Assembly: GCF_020880415.1 (NCBI RefSeq)
Contig: NZ_JAJIUJ010000103.1
Span: 1-64,000, forward strand
Source of the DNA: Xanthomonas euvesicatoria pv. euvesicatoria
GTDB taxonomy: Bacteria; Pseudomonadota; Gammaproteobacteria; Xanthomonadales; Xanthomonadaceae
Direction: 5' to 3'
DNA length: 64,000 nt
A model generated the notes under the pieces. It saw only the letters and a list, made by a program, of their open reading frames with translations. It was not told the DNA's origin and ran no database searches. Positions 1-14,489 of this stretch are shown in pieces. The translations under genes were made by a program, and so were the position numbers. Every line of letters begins with the position of its first letter. The first letter of the stretch is position 1.

Positions 1-634
1 TCGATCCAGCCGCACAGCCGTTGATGAATCAGGCGAGCCGGGTCGGTTTGGAGCGCCCGCACCTCGGCCATCTCGATGCGGGTATACGGGCGACGCCCAA
101 GAATCGCCTCTGCAATCTGAGGATTCAGCGCGACGAATAGCCGTCCGTCCTCCTCGTCGAAGGCGTAGCTCATCAGGTGAAAAGACCTTTGCCTGCTCTC
201 CTTGGTGACGACCACCGTCACGTTTGCCATGCGCAGCAAGCTCGCCTTGATCGCCCTGATATGTCGCCGCCATCGGTCAAGCCGATTTCGCATAGCAGGC
301 TGGTCATACTCTCTCTCACGACCAGCGCATCCTGCCCTACCGCGTCGAACTTCGGCTCAAGGAATAGACGGAGTTGCCTCGGCAAGTCCGCTGTTGGCTC
401 TGGCGTCAGGATGATGCCCTTCGGCCCTCCAAGAGCCACAAGACCTTGCAGCAGCCGCATGTCATCTGCACCAAGAGGCTCGAAGCCGACGAACCGCGCT
501 TGTTCATTCTCGGCGTAGTGATACGTCACGTCGAGCTTGAGCTTCTTCCGTTCGCCGCGCTTGAGACTGCGGAACAAACCGGGGACCAAGCAGTGCATTG
601 GATCGTGCCTGGCATGGGTAAGGTCAAAAGCCAT
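1..634 (-). pseudogene. repC: IncQ-type replication initiator RepC, frameshifted and cut by the window edge
   Basis: RepC of IncQ plasmids binds origin iterons and loads the RepA helicase. From the ATG at 634 (GGAGG 7 nt upstream) the protein reads MAFDLTHARHDPMHC, then GLFRSLKRGERKKLKLDVTY and EPLGADDMRLLQGLVAL, which I recognise as the N-terminal half of RSF1010 RepC. This frame stops at 218-220. The homology continues in another frame from about 270 down to 1, with no stop: ASLLRMANVTVVV, DEEDGRLFVALNP and RLIHQRLCGWI. A one-base loss (or two-base gain) near 250-270 explains this. It is either real decay or a sequence error. The C-terminus lies outside the window. The start overlaps the end of repA by 11 nt, so the two were probably translationally coupled. 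Confidence 0.8.
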
Positions 635-1499
635 CGCCTCGCCTCCGACCATCACGTCTTTCCTCATTCCTGCTGGCCTCATACAGCTCCACCGGCACCA
701 GCACGCCGCCGGCGTGCCGCATGTACCAGCGATCAAGCGGCGTGGCGTCGTAGTTCTGCTTGCTGACGCCGAAACGCACGAAGTAGCCGCGCCGCTCATC
801 GCCGATGGGCTGCCGGTCATGGGCGCGGTCGCTGAGGCGCTTCGCCTCGTCCTCAGTCATGCGGGCGACGTAACCGCACCACCTGGCGTTGTCGATCAGC
901 GCGGACGCGCCACGCGCGGCCTGCTGCTGGTCGGTCAGCCCTTCGCGGGCACTTCCCTTGCTGACGTGGTGCAGGTAGAGCACGGATGCGCCCGTGGTAG
1001 CCGCAACCTGCTCCAGCACGGCCACGAGGTGGGCCATGTTGCCGTTGCTGTTCTCATCGAGGGCGTGGATGCGGCTCAGGGTGTCCAGCACGATCAGCCT
1101 CGCCCCAGCGCTGTACTCGATGACGCGGCGCAAGTGAGCCTCGTCCATGACATTCAGTCGCTTGCCCATGATCGGTTCAAGCGCAAGGTTCTCTGCGATG
1201 GCTTGGCGTGCCGCGTGTCCGAGGTGCTGACCGATGGCGTGAATGCGCCGCACAAGCGCGGGCGGCGGGTCTTCCCCGGCCAGATAGACCACTCGCCCGG
1301 TGTGCGCGGGGGCCAGGCCCACGAGGTCGCCGCCGGCAACGCTGCATGCGATGCTCATGGCCGCTTCCAGCGCCCAGAAGCTCTTACCCGTGGCCCCTGG
1401 GGCGACGAGCGCGCCGACGGTTCCCGCGAGGAAGCCCGGCCATATGAAGTCCAGCGCCGGCGGTTCGCACTCGAACGCCGCCAGCACGTCAATCGCCAC
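624..1499 (-). CDS. repA: IncQ-type RepA hexameric replicative helicase
   Basis: This 291-residue RecA-fold ATPase would unwind DNA at an IncQ-type origin together with RepC. It follows RSF1010 RepA along its length: GTVGALVAPGATGKS holds the Walker A loop (about 34-40), LIVLDTLSR the Walker B (about 135-143), then YLHHVSKGSA (about 175-184), DQQQAARGASALIDNARW and RRGYFVRFGVSKQNY. Its length is close to RSF1010 RepA (about 279). The gene is intact. It lies 3 nt after a small DNA-binding gene and overlaps repC, the order expected of an IncQ replication operon. Its presence beside a phage-type integrase on the chromosome suggests a replicating integrative element or a captured replicon. Family is certain; present activity is unknown because repC is broken. 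Confidence 0.9.
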   Translation of the reverse strand: MAIDVLAAFECEPPALDFIWPGFLAGTVGALVAPGATGKSFWALEAAMSIACSVAGGDLVGLAPAHTGRVVYLAGEDPPPALVRRIHAIGQHLGHAARQAIAENLALEPIMGKRLNVMDEAHLRRVIEYSAGARLIVLDTLSRIHALDENSNGNMAHLVAVLEQVAATTGASVLYLHHVSKGSAREGLTDQQQAARGASALIDNARWCGYVARMTEDEAKRLSDRAHDRQPIGDERRGYFVRFGVSKQNYDATPLDRWYMRHAGGVLVPVELYEASRNEERRDGRRRGDGF

Positions 1500-1502
1500 G
1501 AC

Positions 1503-1736
1503 TCAGCTCCCCGTTCCGTACAGGGATTCGTCGCTCAGCACCTCGGCGATCTGCGAGGTTCGGAAGTAGACCCGCCGGCCGATCTTCAAGCGGGCCTTGT
1601 TGATCCGCTGCGTCCATTCGTTCGTCGCACGCAAGCTGATCCGCAACCCATCAGGCGAACGATCCAGGACAGTGGCGAGCTGCGCGATGCTCAGCAGCGG
1701 GCCGAAGCGTTGCAGCAGCGTGTCTTCCATCGTCAT
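1503..1736 (-). CDS. small DNA-binding protein heading the rep operon
   Basis: This 77-residue protein starts MTMEDTLLQRFGPLLSIAQL. The LLSIAQLATVLDRSPDGLR segment (about 14-32) reads as a helix-turn-helix, followed by KIGRRVYFRTSQIAEVL, a wing plus helix as in excisionase/MerR-like plasmid regulators. I start it at 1736 because a GGTGG lies 9 nt upstream; a longer start at 1844 would overlap the divergent gene. It ends 3 nt before repA, so a repressor of the replication operon is a reasonable inference, by analogy with the small repressor gene of IncQ plasmids, although the sequence is not that repressor. The exact family is not recognised. Confidence 0.6.
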   Translation of the reverse strand: MTMEDTLLQRFGPLLSIAQLATVLDRSPDGLRISLRATNEWTQRINKARLKIGRRVYFRTSQIAEVLSDESLYGTGS

Positions 1737-1817
1737 TGCGTAAACCACCGTTATCAACTGAATTGCAACGAAGGTTACGCAGCGCCAGGCTTGATGGCAG
1801 CTTATTAGTTGGCAATA

Positions 1818-2837
1818 ATGGTTGACATGGAAAACGAAGAGCACGCAAAGAAGCGCCTTGGTCGCTACTACATCCCCATCTGGGAAGGCTGCGACCCCAC
1901 CGTTTCTCAGTCCATCAAAGATTTCCGCGAACGTTGGAAGCCATACTCCACGTCTTCGCGACGCTACCCCATCGGGCGACTGATCCAGGAAGTGATCGAT
2001 CCTGCTGTAGCCGCCTACATGGCAACCCTTCCAGTACGTTACTCGGGCTACGTCCCCGGCGCCGGCACGGGTGTGGGCTTCAGCGCGATCATTGGACTGG
2101 TAGGACTTGACGCGATGGTTCGCGTGCAGCGCCAGTTGCTACGCCAGTTCATCAAAACGGAAGACCGACAGACACCAAGGGATCATCGCTTTACCGCGAC
2201 CCTCGAAGCCTTGATCGAACTGGTTTGCTGCTGTGCCAGCAAACGCCCGCAAACGTCTGCCCCCGCTCAGGGCGTCAGTCTCAATGCGCAACGGAAACAC
2301 GGCTTCTGCGACTTTTGCGGAGAGCTGACGGAGTTTTCCGCGTTCATGGCCAACGTTGCGGAGCAGCAGGTCAACGATGCGGAGCTTGAGAATCGCAAGA
2401 AGCTTGAACTTAGTCACCAGTATTGCGAGGGGCATCGACCCAAGCTAACGAATGGCGAATGGAACCCCGCATACAGACAGGCGAAGCGATCACTCGCGCA
2501 GTTTGAACTTGAGCTGGCCAGGCTCAGCCTGCAATGCGCAAAACCGGCAACGCCGCAAGTGAAATCGGGAGATCAACTCGTTGACGGCTACTTCTTCCAC
2601 TATGTCATGCGCCAGACGTTGCAACCGGCAGACAAAGCGGAACTGCGCAACCAGGCGCGGCTGATGGTGGACTCGAAGCTATCCGATCGCAAGAAGCAGA
2701 TCTTGATGCTCCAGTGTTCTGGACTCAATCAGTCGGAGATTGCGCGAAGGTTGGGCATCGAGCGCCAAGCGGTATCGAAGGCGCTGGCATCAATCCCCGC
2801 AATGTTTCACTTGAAGAAGAAGCGTCCCATCCGCTGA
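1818..2837 (+). CDS. uncharacterised Zn-ribbon and HTH protein of the integrated element
   Basis: This protein of about 339 residues belongs to no family I recognise. It has a basic, aromatic N-terminus (KKRLGRYYIPIWEG), a glycine-rich stretch (VPGAGTGVGFSAIIGLVGL) and a possible zinc ribbon made from FCDFCGELTEF and YCEGHRP, about 45 residues apart. The C-terminus DRKKQILMLQCSGLNQSEIA followed by RRLGIERQAVSKAL is a clear helix-turn-helix of the sigma-4/LuxR kind. It is divergent from the rep operon across a short shared upstream region, so control of element replication or transfer is possible. Starts at 1809 (TTG), 1818 and 1827 are all open and none has a good ribosome site. Base composition is visibly more AT-rich than the core genes. 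Confidence 0.6.
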   Translation: MVDMENEEHAKKRLGRYYIPIWEGCDPTVSQSIKDFRERWKPYSTSSRRYPIGRLIQEVIDPAVAAYMATLPVRYSGYVPGAGTGVGFSAIIGLVGLDAMVRVQRQLLRQFIKTEDRQTPRDHRFTATLEALIELVCCCASKRPQTSAPAQGVSLNAQRKHGFCDFCGELTEFSAFMANVAEQQVNDAELENRKKLELSHQYCEGHRPKLTNGEWNPAYRQAKRSLAQFELELARLSLQCAKPATPQVKSGDQLVDGYFFHYVMRQTLQPADKAELRNQARLMVDSKLSDRKKQILMLQCSGLNQSEIARRLGIERQAVSKALASIPAMFHLKKKRPIR

Positions 2838-2940
2838 TTTCTTTTGGCGTCAACCAAAAGGGTCAATCATTAGGCCGAATCGATCCGCATTGACAGGCAC
2901 CATCAGGCACATATTCGCAAGTGACTGAAGAGGCCAGGGG

Positions 2941-3186
2941 ATGCAAGCAGCCACAAGTAAGACACTCATCAACCGGAAAAAGCTACTGGCGATGATCCCG
3001 CTGTCTGAGCGAACGATCTTCAACATGGAACAGCGCGGGGAGTTCCCGCGCCGGATCGCACTCACCAGCCGAAACGTCGCCTGGGACTTGGCAGAAATCG
3101 AGGAATGGATCGAGGCACGCAAGTCATCGGGCACGCAGGCCATGCGGCCCGGCTTCACCCCGTCGGTCGCAGCCACCGCTTTTTAG
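2941..3186 (+). CDS. AlpA-family phage/island transcriptional regulator
   Basis: This 81-residue protein contains LINRKKLLAMIPLSERTIFN and the downstream residues MEQRGEFPRRIAL, followed by VAWDLAEIEEWIEARK. That is the winged-helix layout of AlpA regulators (PF05930), which activate integrase genes or act as excisionases in P4-like elements. It lies next to, and converges on, the integrase gene at 3276-4478, which fits such a role. The 103 bp before it shows no obvious operator. The tail after residue 62 (SSGTQAMRPGF) is unremarkable. Confidence 0.8.
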   Translation: MQAATSKTLINRKKLLAMIPLSERTIFNMEQRGEFPRRIALTSRNVAWDLAEIEEWIEARKSSGTQAMRPGFTPSVAATAF

Positions 3187-3275
3187 CCGCTAAAACGCCG
3201 CGCCCCTCAAGTGTCAATGACAGCCGAGGCCAAGGTCGCTGTTCTGGAGGCGCTGCCTACCTGCCCTCCTCTGAC

Positions 3276-4478
3276 TTAAGCCTTCGACCGCTTGAGCGTC
3301 CATTCGTCGATCATGTCCGCCCAGTCCTGCAACATCGCCGTCCGCTGCTCGCGGTACTCGGCCTTGTTGTAGACGGCCCTGACGCCTCTCTGTTCGTGCG
3401 CCAGACACTTCTCGATCCAGTCCGTGTTGTAGCCAGCCTCGTGCAACAACGTGCTGGCCGTGCGCCGCAAGTCATGCGGCCCGAACTTGGCGAGCGGCTT
3501 TCCTTCCTTCTGCGCCAGCCGATACGTCAGCGTCAGCACCTGGTTGAGCGTAGCGCTGCTCATGGGTAGGTCCGAGTCGTACCGCGACGGCAGCACGTAG
3601 TCCGATCCACCGGCGAAGGTTTTCAGGGCAATGAAGATGTCCAGCGCCTGGCGGGACAGAAACACCAGGTGCGGATTGCGCCGCTTCATCCGCTCCTTCG
3701 GGATCGTCAAGAGTGCGTCGCTGAAATTGATCTCGCTCCAGGTCGCGTTGGTCAGCTCGCTCTTGCGCACCATTGTCAACAGCAGCAGCTTGGCCGCCGC
3801 CCGAATGGATGGAGCTGTGCCAATGCGCTCCATGTACTGGTACATCAGGCCGATCTCGTCGGGCGTCAGCGCACGGTCGCGCGGCTCGAATTTGGCGATG
3901 GACGTTGGGCGCACCAGCTCCGCCGGGTTCTCGACCTTCTGGCCACGCTCGATGGCCCAGCGATAGACCTGCATCACCACCTCGCGGACATGCACTGCCG
4001 TTGCCGGCGCGCCGCGCTCCACGATGGCATCGGTCAGTGCCCGCAAGTCCTCGTGGGTAATCTCCACCAGCTTCTGATTGCCGAATTTCGGTTTCAAGTC
4101 GCGCTCGTAGACTGAGCGGCGCATGTCGCGGGTGGAGTCGGCCATTTGGTAGCCGCGCAGCCACTTTTCCGCCCAGGCCCCGAACGTCTCCGCGCCCTTG
4201 ACGCGGGCCTTATCCCGCGCCTTCTCCTTGGCCGGTGACTTCCCGGCCGCAACCATCTTCTTGGCCTCGCCCAACCGCTCGCGGGCTTCCGCCAGGGTGA
4301 TGCCGCCGACACCGTAGCGGCCGAAGGTGATGGTCTCCTGCCTACCGTGGATCGAGTAGTTGTAGCGGAATGAGATCGCTCCGGCAGCCGTGACGGCTAC
4401 ATAGAGGCCGTCACGGTCATTCACCTTGTAGAGCTTGTCCTTCGGCTTGAGGTTGCGCAGCTTGGTATCGGTCAGCAT
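3276..4478 (-). CDS. int: tyrosine recombinase/integrase, P4-like with DUF4102 arm-binding domain
   Basis: This 400-residue integrase catalyses site-specific recombination between attP and attB. The N-terminus (KLRNLKPKDKLYKVNDRDGL, then LYVAVTAAG) is the DUF4102 arm-binding domain, and residues about 100-190 are the core-binding SAM-like domain. The catalytic domain shows Arg238 (MVRKSEL), Lys261, H335-D-L-R338 and His361 (LAHEQRG), with Tyr370 (VRAVYNKAEY) as likely nucleophile and Tyr375 as the alternative. It is full length. The start faces guaA, whose 3' end is a documented island integration site, and short repeats lie just upstream of its start. It is therefore probably the enzyme that placed this element. 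Confidence 0.95.
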   Translation of the reverse strand: MLTDTKLRNLKPKDKLYKVNDRDGLYVAVTAAGAISFRYNYSIHGRQETITFGRYGVGGITLAEARERLGEAKKMVAAGKSPAKEKARDKARVKGAETFGAWAEKWLRGYQMADSTRDMRRSVYERDLKPKFGNQKLVEITHEDLRALTDAIVERGAPATAVHVREVVMQVYRWAIERGQKVENPAELVRPTSIAKFEPRDRALTPDEIGLMYQYMERIGTAPSIRAAAKLLLLTMVRKSELTNATWSEINFSDALLTIPKERMKRRNPHLVFLSRQALDIFIALKTFAGGSDYVLPSRYDSDLPMSSATLNQVLTLTYRLAQKEGKPLAKFGPHDLRRTASTLLHEAGYNTDWIEKCLAHEQRGVRAVYNKAEYREQRTAMLQDWADMIDEWTLKRSKA

Positions 4479-4711
4479 GGTTCTCGCCCTGATTCAGCTC
4501 AAATACCATGATCCGAAAATCGGTCTATCCTGGCGTAAAAAAAACAACAAAATCATTGTTTTACGCCAATTCAATACCATGAACATCCGCAAGGTGATTG
4601 CATGGTATCGGCGACTTCTCATGGCATAGAAGCATTCAATGCCATCCATCATGCCATGAAGAAACGGTGCTTGGCGATGCCAAATGTTGCCAGGCAGTGC
4701 CGAACTAAATC
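4479..4711. repeat. integrase upstream region with inverted and direct repeats (putative attachment and arm sites)
   Basis: This AT-rich stretch between the integrase start and the guaA terminator holds no gene. AATACCATGA occurs at 4502-4511 and 4573-4582, and its core recurs inverted as CATGGTAT at 4601-4608. An inverted repeat TGGCGTAAAA (4531-4540) / TTTTACGCCA (4559-4568) encloses an 18-nt loop. Several ATGCCAT words follow at about 4620-4660, and GTGCCA/AGTGCC words lie nearer guaA. Such clusters fit integrase arm sites or a self-regulated int promoter. The function is inferred. Confidence 0.5.
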
Positions 4712-4739
4712 AAAAAAAAGCCCGCATTGACACGGGCTT
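4712..4739 (-). terminator. intrinsic terminator downstream of guaA
   Basis: On the minus strand AAGCCCG and CGGGCTT form a 7-bp stem around an 8-nt loop, followed by eight T residues. It lies 47 bp past the guaA stop codon. If the element's junction is at the guaA 3' end, this terminator belongs to the element. Confidence 0.85.
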
Positions 4740-4786
4740 AGGTGTGTTTTGATGTCACTAGGTGCCAGCCAGTGCCAGACGCAGAA

Positions 4787-6352
4787 TCACTCCCACTCGA
4801 TCGTCGCCGGCGGCTTGCCGGAGATGTCGTAGACCACGCGCGACACACCACGCAGCTCGTTGATGATGCGGTTGCTCACGGTGCCGAGGAAGTCGTACGG
4901 CAGGTGCGCCCAATGCGCGGTCATGAAGTCGATGGTCTCCACCGCGCGCAGCGCGATCACCCATTCGTAGGCGCGGGCGTCGCCGACCACGCCGACCGAC
5001 TTCACCGGCAGGAACACGGCGAAGGCCTGGCTGGTCTTGTCGTACAGGTCGGCCTTGCGCAGTTCGTCGATGAAGATCGCGTCGGCCTTGGCCAGCAACT
5101 CGGCGTACTCGCGCTTCACTTCGCCCAGGATGCGTACGCCCAGGCCGGGGCCCGGGAACGGGTGGCGATACACCATGGTGCGCGGCAGGCCGAGTTCCAC
5201 GCCAAGGCGACGCACCTCGTCCTTGAACAATTCGCGCAGCGGCTCGACCAGGCCCAGCTTCATGTGCTCGGGCAAGCCACCGACGTTATGGTGGCTCTTG
5301 ATCACGTGCGCCTTGCCGGTCTTGCTGCCCGCCGACTCGATCACGTCCGGATAGATCGTACCCTGCGCCAGCCACTTGGCATTGGCCAGCTTGTTGGATT
5401 CTTCGTCGAAGATCTCCACGAACAGGTTGCCGATGATCTTGCGCTTGGCTTCCGGGTCGCTGACGCCTTCAAGCTTGGCGAAATAACGGTCGGCGGCGTT
5501 GACGCGAATCACCTTGACGCCCATGTGCTCGGCGAACATCGCCATCACCTGGTCGCCTTCCTGCCAACGCAGCAAGCCGGTATCGACGAACACGCAGGTC
5601 AGCTTGTCGCCGATCGCCTTGTGCAGCAGCGCGGCCACCACCGACGAATCGACGCCGCCGGACAACCCAAGAATCACTTCATCGTCGCCCACCTGTTCGC
5701 GCACGCGCGCGATCTGGTCCTCGATGATGTTGGCCGCGGTCCACAGCGTCTGGCAGCCGCAGACATCCACCACGAAGCGACGCAGCAAGGTCTGGCCCTG
5801 CAAGGTATGCGTCACCTCAGGATGGAACTGCACGCCGTACCAACGCTTGGCTTCGTTGGACATGGCCGCCACCGGGATGCGGTCGGTCGTGGCGGTAATG
5901 GTGAAGCCCGGTGGCACCTGCGACACGTGGTCGCCGTGGCTCATCCATACATTCAGGCGCGAGGCGCCGGCGTGGTCGGTGAGGCCGGAGAACAAGGCAT
6001 CTGCCGCCACCACGTCCACTTCGGCATGGCCGAATTCGCGTTGATCCGCTGCCTCGGTCGCACCACCCAATTGCGCGGCGAGGGTCTGCATGCCGTAGCA
6101 GATACCGAACACCGGCAGGCCGCTATCGAACACTTCCTGCGGCGCCACCGGTGCGCCCGGCGACGTGGTCGACTCCGGGCCGCCGGACAGGATGATGCCC
6201 TTGGCACCGAAACCGGCAATCTCCGACGGATCGTGATCCCACGCCCAAATCTCGCAGTAGACCCCGATCTCGCGAATACGCCGCGCAATCAGCTGGGTGT
6301 ACTGCGCACCGAAGTCGAGGATGAGGATCTTGTCGGTATGGATGTTGGTCAT
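4787..6352 (-). CDS. guaA: GMP synthase (glutamine-hydrolysing)
   Basis: Converts XMP, ATP and glutamine to GMP, the last step of guanine nucleotide synthesis, in the cytoplasm. The 521 residues split into a class I glutamine amidotransferase (nucleophile Cys85 in [10 protein letters not shown]; His177 and Glu179 in FHPEV), an ATP pyrophosphatase domain (LSGGVDSS, about 230-237) and the C-terminal dimerisation domain ending KPPATIEWE. Length and motifs are standard. It follows guaB on the same strand, separated by a repeat-filled 121-bp gap. The last codons are the probable attachment site for the adjacent element, but the protein end is intact. Confidence 0.98.
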
Positions 6353-6358
6353 TGAGAG

Positions 6359-6473
6359 CCGGGAATCGAGAATCGGGATGAGGGAATCGAAACAGCAAAC
6401 GCAGCGCCGACCGCTATCGGATGAGGAGGCGGCGGGCTCTTACGATTCCCGATTCGCGATTCCCCATTCCCGG
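6359..6473. repeat. paired GGGAATCG palindromic repeat between guaB and guaA
   Basis: Two 31-nt arms at 6359-6389 and 6443-6473 are inverted copies of a CCGGGAATCG-type sequence and enclose about 53 nt. They fill the guaB-guaA spacer, and the right arm ends one base before the guaB stop codon. Related arms occur at 7986-8146, 44947-45048, 45843-45977 and 63240-63260. A folded transcript could affect the guaB/guaA expression ratio. Confidence 0.8.
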
Positions 6474-7964
<1,491 letters not shown>

Positions 7965-7985
7965 TTAACGCATTGGGGCCAGGAT

Positions 7986-8146
7986 GGGGGAGTCGGGATT
8001 CGCAACAGCGCGCCCTGCACCGTCCGCCGTTCGCTTGTTTGTCAGGATGCCGATGGCCGGCCGATCCCGGATGCAATCCGGATCGGCCGACGCGTGCGCT
8101 TGGCCGCTGCGGTTAACCAATCCCCAATCCCGAATCCCCACTCTCG
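7986..8146. repeat. paired GGGAATCG-type repeat between folD and guaB
   Basis: The left arm (about 7986-8002, GGGGAGTCGGGATTCG) and the right arm (about 8118-8146, CCAATCCCCAATCCCGAATC and onward) are inverted relatives of the repeat found between guaB and guaA. The right arm overlaps the end of folD and supplies its stop codon and last residues. Confidence 0.7.
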
Positions 8147-9024
8147 GCGGCATCGGCGGCCTCGATGGTGTTCTGCATCAGCGTGGCCACCGTCATTGGC
8201 CCTACCCCGCCCGGCACCGGGGTGATCCAGGCCGCGCGCTGCGCGGCGGCGTCGAAGCCGACGTCGCCCACCAGGCGGCCATCATCGAGCCGGTTGATGC
8301 CGACATCGATCACCACCGCGCCCGGCTTGACCCATTCGCCCGGAATCAGGCCCGGGCGGCCCACCGCCACCACCAGGATGTCGGCATTGCGCACGCTCGC
8401 TTCCAGCACATCGGGCGGGGTGAATTTGTGGCAACTGGTGACCGTGCAGCCGGCGATCAATAGCTCCAACCCCATCGGCCGGCCCACGTGGTTGCTCACC
8501 CCCACGATGGTGGCGTTGCGGCCGCGCACCGGTTGGTCGGTATGCCCGAGCAAGGTCACGATGCCGCGCGGCGTGCACGGGCGCAGCCCGAATTCGCGCA
8601 AGGCCAAGTGCCCGACATTCTGCGGATGGAATCCGTCCACGTCCTTGCGCGGGTCGATGCGCTGAATCAGCCGGTTGGCATCGGGGATGCCCGGCAGCGG
8701 CAGCTGGATCAGAATGCCGTGGATCTTGGGGTCGGCATTGAGCTCATCGATCAGCGACGCCAGCTGGGCTTCGCTGGTGCCCTGCGGCAGGTCGTAATCG
8801 AAGGCTTCGATGCCGACCTTCTCGGCCGCGCGCCGCTTGTTGCGCACATACACCGACGATGCCGGATCGCCACCGACCAGCACCACCGCCAACCCGGGTC
8901 GCGCCTTGCCGGCGGCCAGCCGCGCATCCACCCGCAGCTTCAATCCGTCGAGCAATTCCTCGGCAATGCGGCGACCATCGAGAAGGCGGGCCGAAGCGGA
9001 GGCAGCTGGCGCAGAAGCGGTCAT
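8113..9024 (-). CDS. folD: methylenetetrahydrofolate dehydrogenase/cyclohydrolase
   Basis: Interconverts 5,10-methylene-, 5,10-methenyl- and 10-formyl-tetrahydrofolate, feeding purine synthesis and formyl-Met-tRNA. It has 303 residues. [20 protein letters not shown] holds the catalytic Lys region, [14 protein letters not shown] the substrate loop, [15 protein letters not shown] the NADP-binding glycine motif and [16 protein letters not shown] the C-terminal signature. The last ten residues ([10 protein letters not shown]) are encoded by the intergenic GGGAATCG-type repeat, so the natural C-terminus has been replaced or extended by repeat sequence. It is divergent from the DUF1244 gene. Confidence 0.97.
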
Positions 9025-12582: not shown

Positions 12583-14489
12583 TACAGTCTTCTGACCTCA
12601 CGTGCGGGGAATGGAACGACCGTATCAGATCGCGCGTCGACTTTCCGTCGAGCAGCCGCGAAATCCGGCATCAGGCTACCCAATACAGTCTCCATCGCGT
12701 TGATGTCATAGCGGTTAACGGCCTCACGCAAGCGCGTCACCAGCTGCAGCACCTGCTCATGCGAGAACTCGCGCACACCGGCTTCCAGAATCTTAGGGTG
12801 CGCGGTGGGACGATAGTCTTCGTCGGAATAGAACAGCGTCTCATGCAGCTTCTCGCCCGGCCGCAGGCCGGTATAGAGAATCGCCACGTCCTTGCCCGGC
12901 TGCTTGCCGGCCAGACGGATCATCTGCTCGGCAAGCAAGCGAATCGGCACCGGCTCGCCCATGTCCAGCGTATAGATCGCACCATGCGATGCAGATGCAG
13001 CCGCCTGGATGACCAACTGGCAGGCTTCGGGGATGGTCATGAAGTAACGCGTGACATCCGGATGCGTCACGGTCACCGGCCCGCCCTGGCGAATCTGTTC
13101 GCGGAACAACGGCACCACGCTGCCGGCCGAATCCAGCACGTTGCCGAAGCGCACGGTGATGAAGCGCGTCGGCGCATCGCGTGCGTCAAGGCTCTGGCAG
13201 ATCATTTCTGCATAGCGCTTGCTTGCGCCCAGCACATTGACCGGCTCGACCGCCTTGTCGGTGGAAATGAAGACGAACGTCTCGATACGTGCCCGCTGGC
13301 AGGCGCGCGCCACGTTCTCGGTCGCCAGCACGTTGTTGCGAACCGCCTCGCGCAACTGCTCTTCCAGCAACGGCACCTGCTTGTACGCAGCCGCATGGAA
13401 GACCGCGTCCGGCGTGGCAGTATTCAACGCATGCGCCACGACCGCCGGGTCGCCGCAATCGCCCAACACGCGCACCACTTCGATATCCGGAAACAGCCGG
13501 CGCAGATCCGAGTCGATGGTCAGTAGCGCCAGCTCGTCGATTTCCAGCAGCACGATCCGGCGCGCGCCATGGCGTGCGCACTGGCGGCAGACTTCCGAAC
13601 CGATCGAACCGCCGGCGCCGGTCACCATCACGGTCTTGTTGGTCAGCCAGTCGCGGATCAGGCGCCAGTCGGGCGTGACCGGCTTGCGGTTGAGCAGGTC
13701 CTCGATCGCGACCTCCTTCAACTCGCCCGGCAAGGAGCGCCCCTCCAGCACGTTGATCAGCTTGGGCACCATGCGAAACGGCAAGCCGGTGCTTTCGCAA
13801 ATCGCGACCACGCGCTGCATGCCGGAGGCATCCAGCGATGGAATCGCGATCACCAGTAATTTGGCAGCAGTCTCTTTGGCAATCGCGGCGGCCTGGTCCA
13901 GATTGCCCAGCACATTGAGGCCCTGGATCTTGGCGCCATGCAGGTTGCTGGCATCGTCCAGATAGCCAATCGGCACAAACGCGCCGGTACGGCGAAGATC
14001 GCGCACCAACCCTTCGGCGGCGCGCCCGGCGCCGAGGATCAGCACGCGCTGCCCCGCATCACCGGAATGCGCGATCTGGTAGTCCTTCCAAGCGCGATAC
14101 AGCAGACGCGGCGTACCCAGCATGGCCGACAACGCAAAGGGATAGACCACCAGCACCGACAGCGGCACGCCATCCAGACGGTCGTACGCCAACGCCAGCA
14201 CGATTGCGACCAATCCGAGAAAACTCGACTTGAAGATGTTCCACAGGTCCGGCACCGAGGCGAAGCGCCACAACCCGCGATACAACCCCATCTTCCAGAA
14301 CACCAGGCCCTGCGCCACCAGCACCACCGCGGTGCGCCAGTCCCACAGCGGCAGATCCGGCGCGTCGCGTAGCATCGAGTAGCGGCCGGCATGCAGGAGC
14401 TGCCAGCATACCCACACCATCAGCAGATCATGTACCACGACCGCTATCTGCGGCAGGGCCTTGGTCAAACGGTCACGCCAGGAAATCAT
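12582..14489 (-). CDS. membrane nucleotide-sugar 4,6-dehydratase (WbpM/FlaA1-like, CapD family)
   Basis: Probably converts UDP-GlcNAc to a 4-keto-6-deoxy sugar for O-antigen, at the inner membrane. It has 635 residues. Four hydrophobic segments fill about 10-125. A first Rossmann fold has VLILGAGRAAEGLVRDL (about 149-165) and the catalytic short-chain dehydrogenase domain begins VMVTGAGGSIGSEV (about 287-300). FISTDKAVEPVNVLGASKR holds the Thr-Asp-Lys and Lys residues; the usual Tyr of YxxxK is replaced, as in the membrane dehydratases. RPGEKLHETLF is near the C-terminus. It lies 13 bp after the glycosyltransferase gene, with which WbpM-type enzymes act in O-antigen synthesis. Confidence 0.9.
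   Translation of the reverse strand: MISWRDRLTKALPQIAVVVHDLLMVWVCWQLLHAGRYSMLRDAPDLPLWDWRTAVVLVAQGLVFWKMGLYRGLWRFASVPDLWNIFKSSFLGLVAIVLALAYDRLDGVPLSVLVVYPFALSAMLGTPRLLYRAWKDYQIAHSGDAGQRVLILGAGRAAEGLVRDLRRTGAFVPIGYLDDASNLHGAKIQGLNVLGNLDQAAAIAKETAAKLLVIAIPSLDASGMQRVVAICESTGLPFRMVPKLINVLEGRSLPGELKEVAIEDLLNRKPVTPDWRLIRDWLTNKTVMVTGAGGSIGSEVCRQCARHGARRIVLLEIDELALLTIDSDLRRLFPDIEVVRVLGDCGDPAVVAHALNTATPDAVFHAAAYKQVPLLEEQLREAVRNNVLATENVARACQRARIETFVFISTDKAVEPVNVLGASKRYAEMICQSLDARDAPTRFITVRFGNVLDSAGSVVPLFREQIRQGGPVTVTHPDVTRYFMTIPEACQLVIQAAASASHGAIYTLDMGEPVPIRLLAEQMIRLAGKQPGKDVAILYTGLRPGEKLHETLFYSDEDYRPTAHPKILEAGVREFSHEQVLQLVTRLREAVNRYDINAMETVLGSLMPDFAAARRKVDARSDTVVPFPAREVRRL

Follow-up and report, generated by a model that had tools for sequence, protein, structure and literature searches.

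Mobile elements inserted at the 3′ end of guaA have been described previously. According to the accessible parts of PMC9376610, the element GIsul2 occupies the guaA 3′ end and has the core sequence GAGTGGGA, its excision and integration depend on Int, and AlpA is likely to be the excisionase; the terms iteron, oriV and IncQ (incompatibility group Q) do not occur in the main text of that paper. RepA and RepC are listed for GIsul2, as theta type, in the available parts of PMC5704250, where helpers of incompatibility group P (IncP) are proposed. Transfer to Escherichia coli and a circular form have been reported for ICERspD18B of Rheinheimera (PMC7775301, excerpts), and islands named GIflu also occupy guaA (PMC13418153, excerpts); the available parts of a study of integrative and conjugative elements of plant pathogens (PMC9373382) mention guaA once, for an Agrobacterium element. 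We analyzed a locus at which IncQ-type replication (rep) genes, an integrase gene and alpA lie next to guaA in Xanthomonas euvesicatoria pv. euvesicatoria. The locus is situated at the start of a 64,000-nucleotide stretch, positions 1 to 64,000 of contig NZ_JAJIUJ010000103.1 in the draft assembly GCF_020880415.1 (121 contigs), hereafter called the window; the source genome is denoted G000, the contig of the window C8 and a second contig of the same genome C19, with G- and L-numbers for other genomes and for comparison loci or contigs. The block probably belongs to the guaA/GIsul2 kind of integrative and mobilizable elements, and its excised circle would replicate transiently by the IncQ mode. 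This kind of element is already known, and the window island is a further case of it.

That IncQ rep genes share a block with a DUF4102-type integrase and an AlpA regulator near guaA had been proposed in a first-pass annotation of the sequence, and Pfam matches confirmed the block at this place. From right to left, the order is guaB, guaA, a 311-bp gap, int (−), alpA (+), a gene for a 342-aa protein (+), a small helix-turn-helix (HTH) gene (−), repA (−) and repC (−). The host gene guaA (4787..6352, −), a 521-aa open reading frame (ORF) for GMP synthase of which the 3′ end is the integration site, was matched in 39 of the 41 genomes searched, including G000. The int gene (3276..4478, −) is an open frame for a P4-type tyrosine integrase of 400 aa with matches to Phage_integrase, to the PHROG integrase and to Arm-DNA-bind_3, which we take to be the family earlier named DUF4102, while alpA (2941..3186, +) encodes an excisionase-type regulator (Phage_AlpA PF05930, E 6e-13; PHROG excisionase and transcriptional regulator). 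The IncQ-type helicase gene repA (624..1499, −) matches AAA_25 and the RepA chain 1g8y (E 2e-73), presumably the RSF1010 RepA protein. The repC gene is found in two parts, the first at 260..628 (−; RepC profile positions 2-124) and the second, in another frame and cut by the contig end, at 3..260 (−; profile positions 124-210), with Pfam RepC matches at E 9e-66 and 7e-44. The frame switches close to base 260, within a gene that is itself truncated by the contig end, and may be a true frame change or an error at the contig end. Contig C8 begins at window base 1, which places the left part of the island outside the window. The rep genes are located on one contig with guaA and guaB, whereas an IncQ plasmid would be a free circular replicon.

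We compared this locus to GIsul2, using the copy in plasmid R485 (L072). The two have in common the tyrosine integrase (90% identical), the position at the guaA 3′ end, the GAGTGGGA core, alpA and repA-repC. In GIsul2, alpA, repA and repC run in one direction and RepA is of the RSF1010 type (47.6% identical to the window RepA), whereas in the window island alpA is inverted, two genes are inserted and RepA is IncQ2-like. The cargo of GIsul2 consists of ars genes, resG and CR2-sul2, as compared to a phage-defence-like visible cargo in the window island, and ArsB, ArsC, ArsH, ArsR and ResG had no match at E 1e-5 in window positions 1-9000 or in C19:1-20000. ICERspD18B, by the accessible parts of its published description, likewise occupies the guaA 3′ end, shares the 8-bp core and contains int, alpA, repA and repC as well as trbJ/K/L, together with antibiotic and arsenic resistance genes. 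The block had been singled out as the most unusual architecture of the window, a view that we abandon, since the same arrangement has been published for GIsul2 and ICERspD18B and recurs in 36 of 60 loci that we compared.

These 60 loci were fetched with the window RepA from one genome per species, a sample that favors close relatives and is no census, and a gene lying beyond the contig end or flank limit of its locus is scored as absent in the gene tallies. In the 36 guaA islands, which keep the order guaA-int-alpA-repA, guaA and int are less than 600 bp apart; alpA was matched in all 36, RepC in 25, the 342-aa gene in 22, TrbL in 22, TrbJ in 18 and the HTH gene in 17. Loci that have both the 342-aa gene and the HTH gene in addition to guaA and int are referred to as window-type (n=17). 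NikA-like or relaxase genes as well as trbJ/trbL are carried by relatives, and RepA was detected in 8 of the 35 genomes of the genus, G000 included.

RepA and RepC had been thought to follow the RSF1010 proteins closely. Such a likeness in the strict sense was ruled out: with pSRC15 as a stand-in for the RSF1010 type, the identity is 46.9% for RepA and 61% and 48% for the two RepC pieces, as compared to 85.8% between RepA and that of the IncQ2 plasmid pFECR, and 94% and 87% between the RepC pieces and the circular IncQ plasmid contig L031. Both L031 and L058 have a MobA-RepB gene and are taken to be circular because their ends overlap by 49 and 127 bases. The iterons of L031, a free-plasmid relative of the island module, differ in sequence despite the high RepC identity.

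The trees comprised 65 RepA and 39 RepC rows, excluding rows with less than 70% coverage or internal stops as well as the window RepC, and were made by a quick method without bootstrap, with 27 (RepA) and 13 (RepC) open branches and with long branches that meet (L069 with L070). The window RepA falls within a starred set (18-19 rows) made up almost entirely of guaA islands, from Xanthomonas, Pseudomonas, Thauera, Ottowia and others, together with contig L022. The neighbors of this set are L027 and two circular contigs, L031 and L058 (support 86, not starred), and the GIsul2 RepA groups with the RSF1010 type (support 100, starred). It had been suggested that a grouping with unrelated phage proteins would speak against the IncQ assignment; RepA was recovered with IncQ plasmids and guaA islands, and the RepC pieces are most like IncQ and island RepC proteins. 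On the RepA tree, with 50 labelled rows, island and plasmid labels change at least 4 times, and on the RepC tree, with 35 labelled rows, at least 5 times, which suggests that the rep module may have been exchanged repeatedly between islands and plasmids.

Median dN/dS values (nonsynonymous to synonymous substitution rates) among up to 15 copies were 0.050 for int (15 copies, window included), 0.093 for repA and 0.085 for repC (window excluded), and pairs that include the window gave 0.05-0.14 for repA; the guaA values are unreliable, as saturated pairs were dropped. Because the medians for repA and repC are about 0.09 between islands of many genera, the rep genes of the guaA islands are, as judged from substitution patterns, kept by purifying selection, although not necessarily in the window copy. 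A single repC match of more than 270 aa of the query was obtained in 15 of the 17 window-type relatives, and L065 has one match to residues 8-275. X. hortorum pv. cynarae has a repC interrupted by ~8 kb (L018 11051-19083) and X. bromi an altered repA (L046 10001-10763). In some copies from Xanthomonas, the rep genes thus seem to be decaying.

Iterons with a spacing of 22 bp overlap the repC 3′ end in 15 of the 17 window-type loci if up to 3 changes from the consensus are allowed, and in 16 with up to 4. Iterons of 22 bp are also located at the repC 3′ end of GIsul2, and pTC-F14 shows a like overlap; they are a described trait of IncQ plasmids (PMC4948828, excerpts). A conserved block of ~200 bp after the iterons was identified in 15 aligned islands or island contigs, and it contains a 15-mer that is identical to that of pVPS72 and two changes away from the oriV motif described for IncQ-3 plasmids (PMC7557826, excerpts). 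With up to 2 changes, this IncQ-like 15-bp motif is present in 14 of the 17 window-type loci, and in 13 of these it follows the end of the repC match at a distance of 91 bp. Among the exceptions, L013 and L014 have iterons and no motif at this threshold, L025 has an array only at up to 4 changes, and L065 has neither. Neither iterons nor motif were detected in 17 of the 36 islands by a search with the window-type iteron only; 16 of these are not window-type, and the origins of such islands may differ.

The motif is accompanied by a hairpin, all 12 variants of which have a 5-8-bp stem, and a hairpin variant is also present in L052, one of the islands that are not window-type; the 5-bp stem of L069 was reached by 204 of 2000 shuffles and the 6-bp stem of pSRC15 and pVPS72 by 43. 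The origin of L019 was aligned to three plasmid origins and the plasmid-like contig L030 with scores of 52-91 (shuffled maxima 26-29), and to pSRC15, pVPS72, pTC-F14, L030, L069 and GIsul2 with scores of 45-107 (shuffled maxima 23-29). RepA and RepC, 22-bp iterons, motif and hairpin are also features of the IncQ plasmids pTC-F14, pSRC15, pVPS72, L031 and L058, while no iteron array, motif or hairpin was found in pFECR, the RepA of which is close to that of the window, by the scans used on the relatives. Within the genus, the motif-hairpin pattern was recovered from 5 of 35 genomes, all of them among the 8 with RepA, as compared to 0 for the reversed control; the RepA genomes without it are G000, where it would lie in a gap, and G004 and G023, where RepA is just 82% identical. 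The guaA islands carry a predicted origin of IncQ type, because 22-bp iterons at the repC 3′ end are followed by an IncQ-like oriV motif and a hairpin. Among the literature matches listed, no title or abstract dealt with an IncQ origin in guaA islands, in a coverage that mostly leaves out subscription papers. L108 (G022) has two iteron arrays (8718-8822 and 14334-14372), and this genome also holds the oriV pattern twice, 5.5 kb apart; a transposase with an rve core lies nearby.

The attL core GAGTGGGA is located within the guaA 3′ end (4791..4798, −; context ATCGAGTGGGAGTGAT), and a partner core, sought as the far attachment site, was identified at C19:11573-11580 (context ATCGAGTGGGAATGAT), so that both island ends in G000 carry this sequence. 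The repeats noticed on the int side are best read as five [AT][AG]CCATG arm-type sites between 4504 and 4658 (+4504, +4575, +4652, −4601, −4620) in the 311-bp guaA-int gap, where they are probable integrase or excisionase arm sites; the mean over the window is 0.11 per 311 bp, and the corresponding gap holds 3-6 such sites in all 22 of the 36 islands that were examined. A search of G000 with the post-repC stretch of the X. arboricola island L019 gave six matches, located at C19:4-616 (82%), at C19:683-979 (two short matches), at C19:11308-11565 (87%), which corresponds to the distal end of the L019 stretch and ties the second core to the island by homology, and on C8 (two further short matches). 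The sequence that follows trbL in relatives is present at C19:3-616. From C19:17208 onward, the contig is 88-89% identical to the DNA after guaA in G008 (L114 4765-7614), the gene of which is presumably of the dabA/DUF2309 type. Because C19 matches both the distal end of L019 and the post-guaA DNA of G008, C8 and C19 most probably flank a single island, with C19:1-11573 as its distal part. By the spacing in L019, about 5.2 kb would be missing between the two contigs, and L019 has the repC end, the origin, a DUF5338 gene, a NikA-like gene, trbJ and trbL in the corresponding stretch. The second core and the IncQ kinship lend support to the earlier idea of an element that combines plasmid replication with site-specific integration.

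We propose that Int, helped by AlpA, would recombine the core in the guaA 3′ end with the distal core and release a circle. RepC would bind the 22-bp iterons that overlap the repC 3′ end and RepA would unwind the DNA, with synthesis starting at the single-strand initiation (ssi)-like hairpin just downstream of the iterons, so that the excised element would be copied before transfer or re-integration. We infer the replication of the excised circle, a primase that would come from elsewhere, and transfer through the conjugation apparatus of a helper.

Several results weigh against this proposal. A GIsul2 construct that lacked alpA, repA and repC was unaffected in its integration into a trap plasmid, as given in the accessible parts of PMC9376610, and the rep genes are therefore not needed for the integration step. 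The window copy may not hold a working replicon, as its repC lies in two frames and its origin would fall in an assembly gap, and the replication step may have been lost there because of the two frames. The oriV iterons that had been sought were found in the islands of relatives, but the motif-hairpin pattern had 0 matches in the G000 contigs, where the origin would fall in the gap. The pattern was also recovered from 0 of 369 genomes drawn evenly across the class, and the islands are therefore rare in a broad draw. TrbJ of L019 was not found in the G000 assembly, in a search without a positive control and for a stretch that would fall between C8 and C19. Three genes, repA, repB and repC, make up the minimal IncQ replicon, in which RepB acts as the primase at ssiA and ssiB (PMC6925257, excerpts), and a RepB-type primase is encoded by pTC-F14, pSRC15, pVPS72 and L031/L058, whereas the islands encode an integrase and no recognized primase. 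A tblastn search with two RepB proteins found matches in L026, L031, L058, L121, L122 and L124, all plasmids or plasmid-like contigs, and none in the islands examined, G000 itself not being searched. A scan for the RepB_primase family matched the RepB control and 0 of 69 island ORFs; these were 68 of the 121 listed and one more, chosen by length and composition from flank-limited loci, some perhaps in the wrong frame, and since all families with at least two members were shown, a second match beside the control would have appeared. The relaxases of L020, L022 and L065 have the relaxase, TraI_middle and LPD7 domains in common with pTC-F14 MobA, and lack its RepB_primase domain. It is possible that a diverged, unscanned or single-island primase is present in the islands.

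That no RepB primase was found in the islands would also be expected if the rep genes were passengers from an old plasmid fusion, in an island that moves by its integrase alone and the circle of which does not replicate. The two-framed repC of the window, the interrupted repC of L018, the altered repA of L046 and the dispensability of rep for GIsul2 integration all fit this explanation, but it accounts poorly for the low dN/dS of repA and repC between islands of many genera and for the conservation of iterons, motif and hairpin, with the motif mostly at one fixed distance, and we regard it as unlikely. A P4-like phage satellite is brought to mind by the P4-type integrase, by AlpA and by the PHROG primase/helicase matches of RepA. 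These matches are only weaker ones, RepC has no PHROG match and is, like the 22-bp iterons, of IncQ type, trbJ/trbL and NikA-like or relaxase genes are found in relatives, and no capsid or packaging family was among the best 25 of 56 families for the 69 island ORFs; on the gene content of relatives and the PHROG matches, this very improbable explanation was rejected. No more credible is an assembly artefact in which plasmid sequence was wrongly joined to the chromosome: the contig does end inside repC and the assembly is split into 121 contigs, but the same guaA-int-alpA-repA join is seen in all 36 islands and in genomes of the same genus, and this recurrence refutes a chimeric contig at the guaA side.

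An integrative and mobilizable element with transient IncQ replication of the circle is thus the reading that we retain. A more far-reaching version, which we consider doubtful, is that the guaA islands represent a lineage of latent IncQ replicons, which would have kept helicase, initiator, iterons and ssi hairpin, given up a dedicated primase and become conditional on a borrowed one (host DnaG or that of a conjugative helper), multiplying only when excised or after transfer, with a rep module repeatedly exchanged with free IncQ plasmids.

The two inserted genes of the window island encode a 342-aa putative regulator (1809..2837, +) with conserved C-x2-C and C-x2-H motifs, a C-terminal HTH like sigma-70 region 4 and Pfam matches below the cut-off, and the small HTH protein upstream of repA (1503..1844, −), with a weak HTH_17 match that is also below the cut-off. 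The true start of the latter is probably internal, because several relatives match only from about residue 23. Five genes that resemble phage defence genes make up the distal cargo at C19:1367-11225 (L104): an MmeI-type IIG restriction-methylation protein (PADLOC E 3e-286), a helicase (DEAD/ResIII matches just under the Pfam cut-offs), a T5orf172 protein, presumably of the GIY-YIG type, an ATPase (best PADLOC match Ppl, E 1e-34) and a Schlafen/AlbA_2 protein. The cargo looks like phage defence by these matches, and no complete named defence system was established in this segment by PADLOC and Pfam. At and beyond the distal core, the int-side end of the guaA island L040 is matched with 88% identity by C19:11570-11686, and C19:11570-17207 (L104) therefore likely represents what is left of a second guaA-type island, arranged in tandem. 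Next in this segment come a zinc-binding dehydrogenase (Pfam) and genes that, by eye, resemble a glycosylase, a short-chain dehydrogenase and a LysR regulator; chromosomal sequence begins again at C19:17208.

The islands raise the question of which enzyme primes their replication. In pFECR, the gene upstream of repA (L073:1829-2779) matches DUF3991/Toprim only weakly and RepB_primase not at all, and this IncQ branch may use a different primase. The maintenance of excised integrative mobilizable elements has been called "An Unexplored World" in a section title of PMC5704250, as seen in its accessible parts. A broad family of islands, to which the sul2-bearing GIsul2 is related, combines a conserved, predicted IncQ-type origin with no recognized RepB primase; this makes the question of maintenance directly testable and bears on how such islands persist during transfer.

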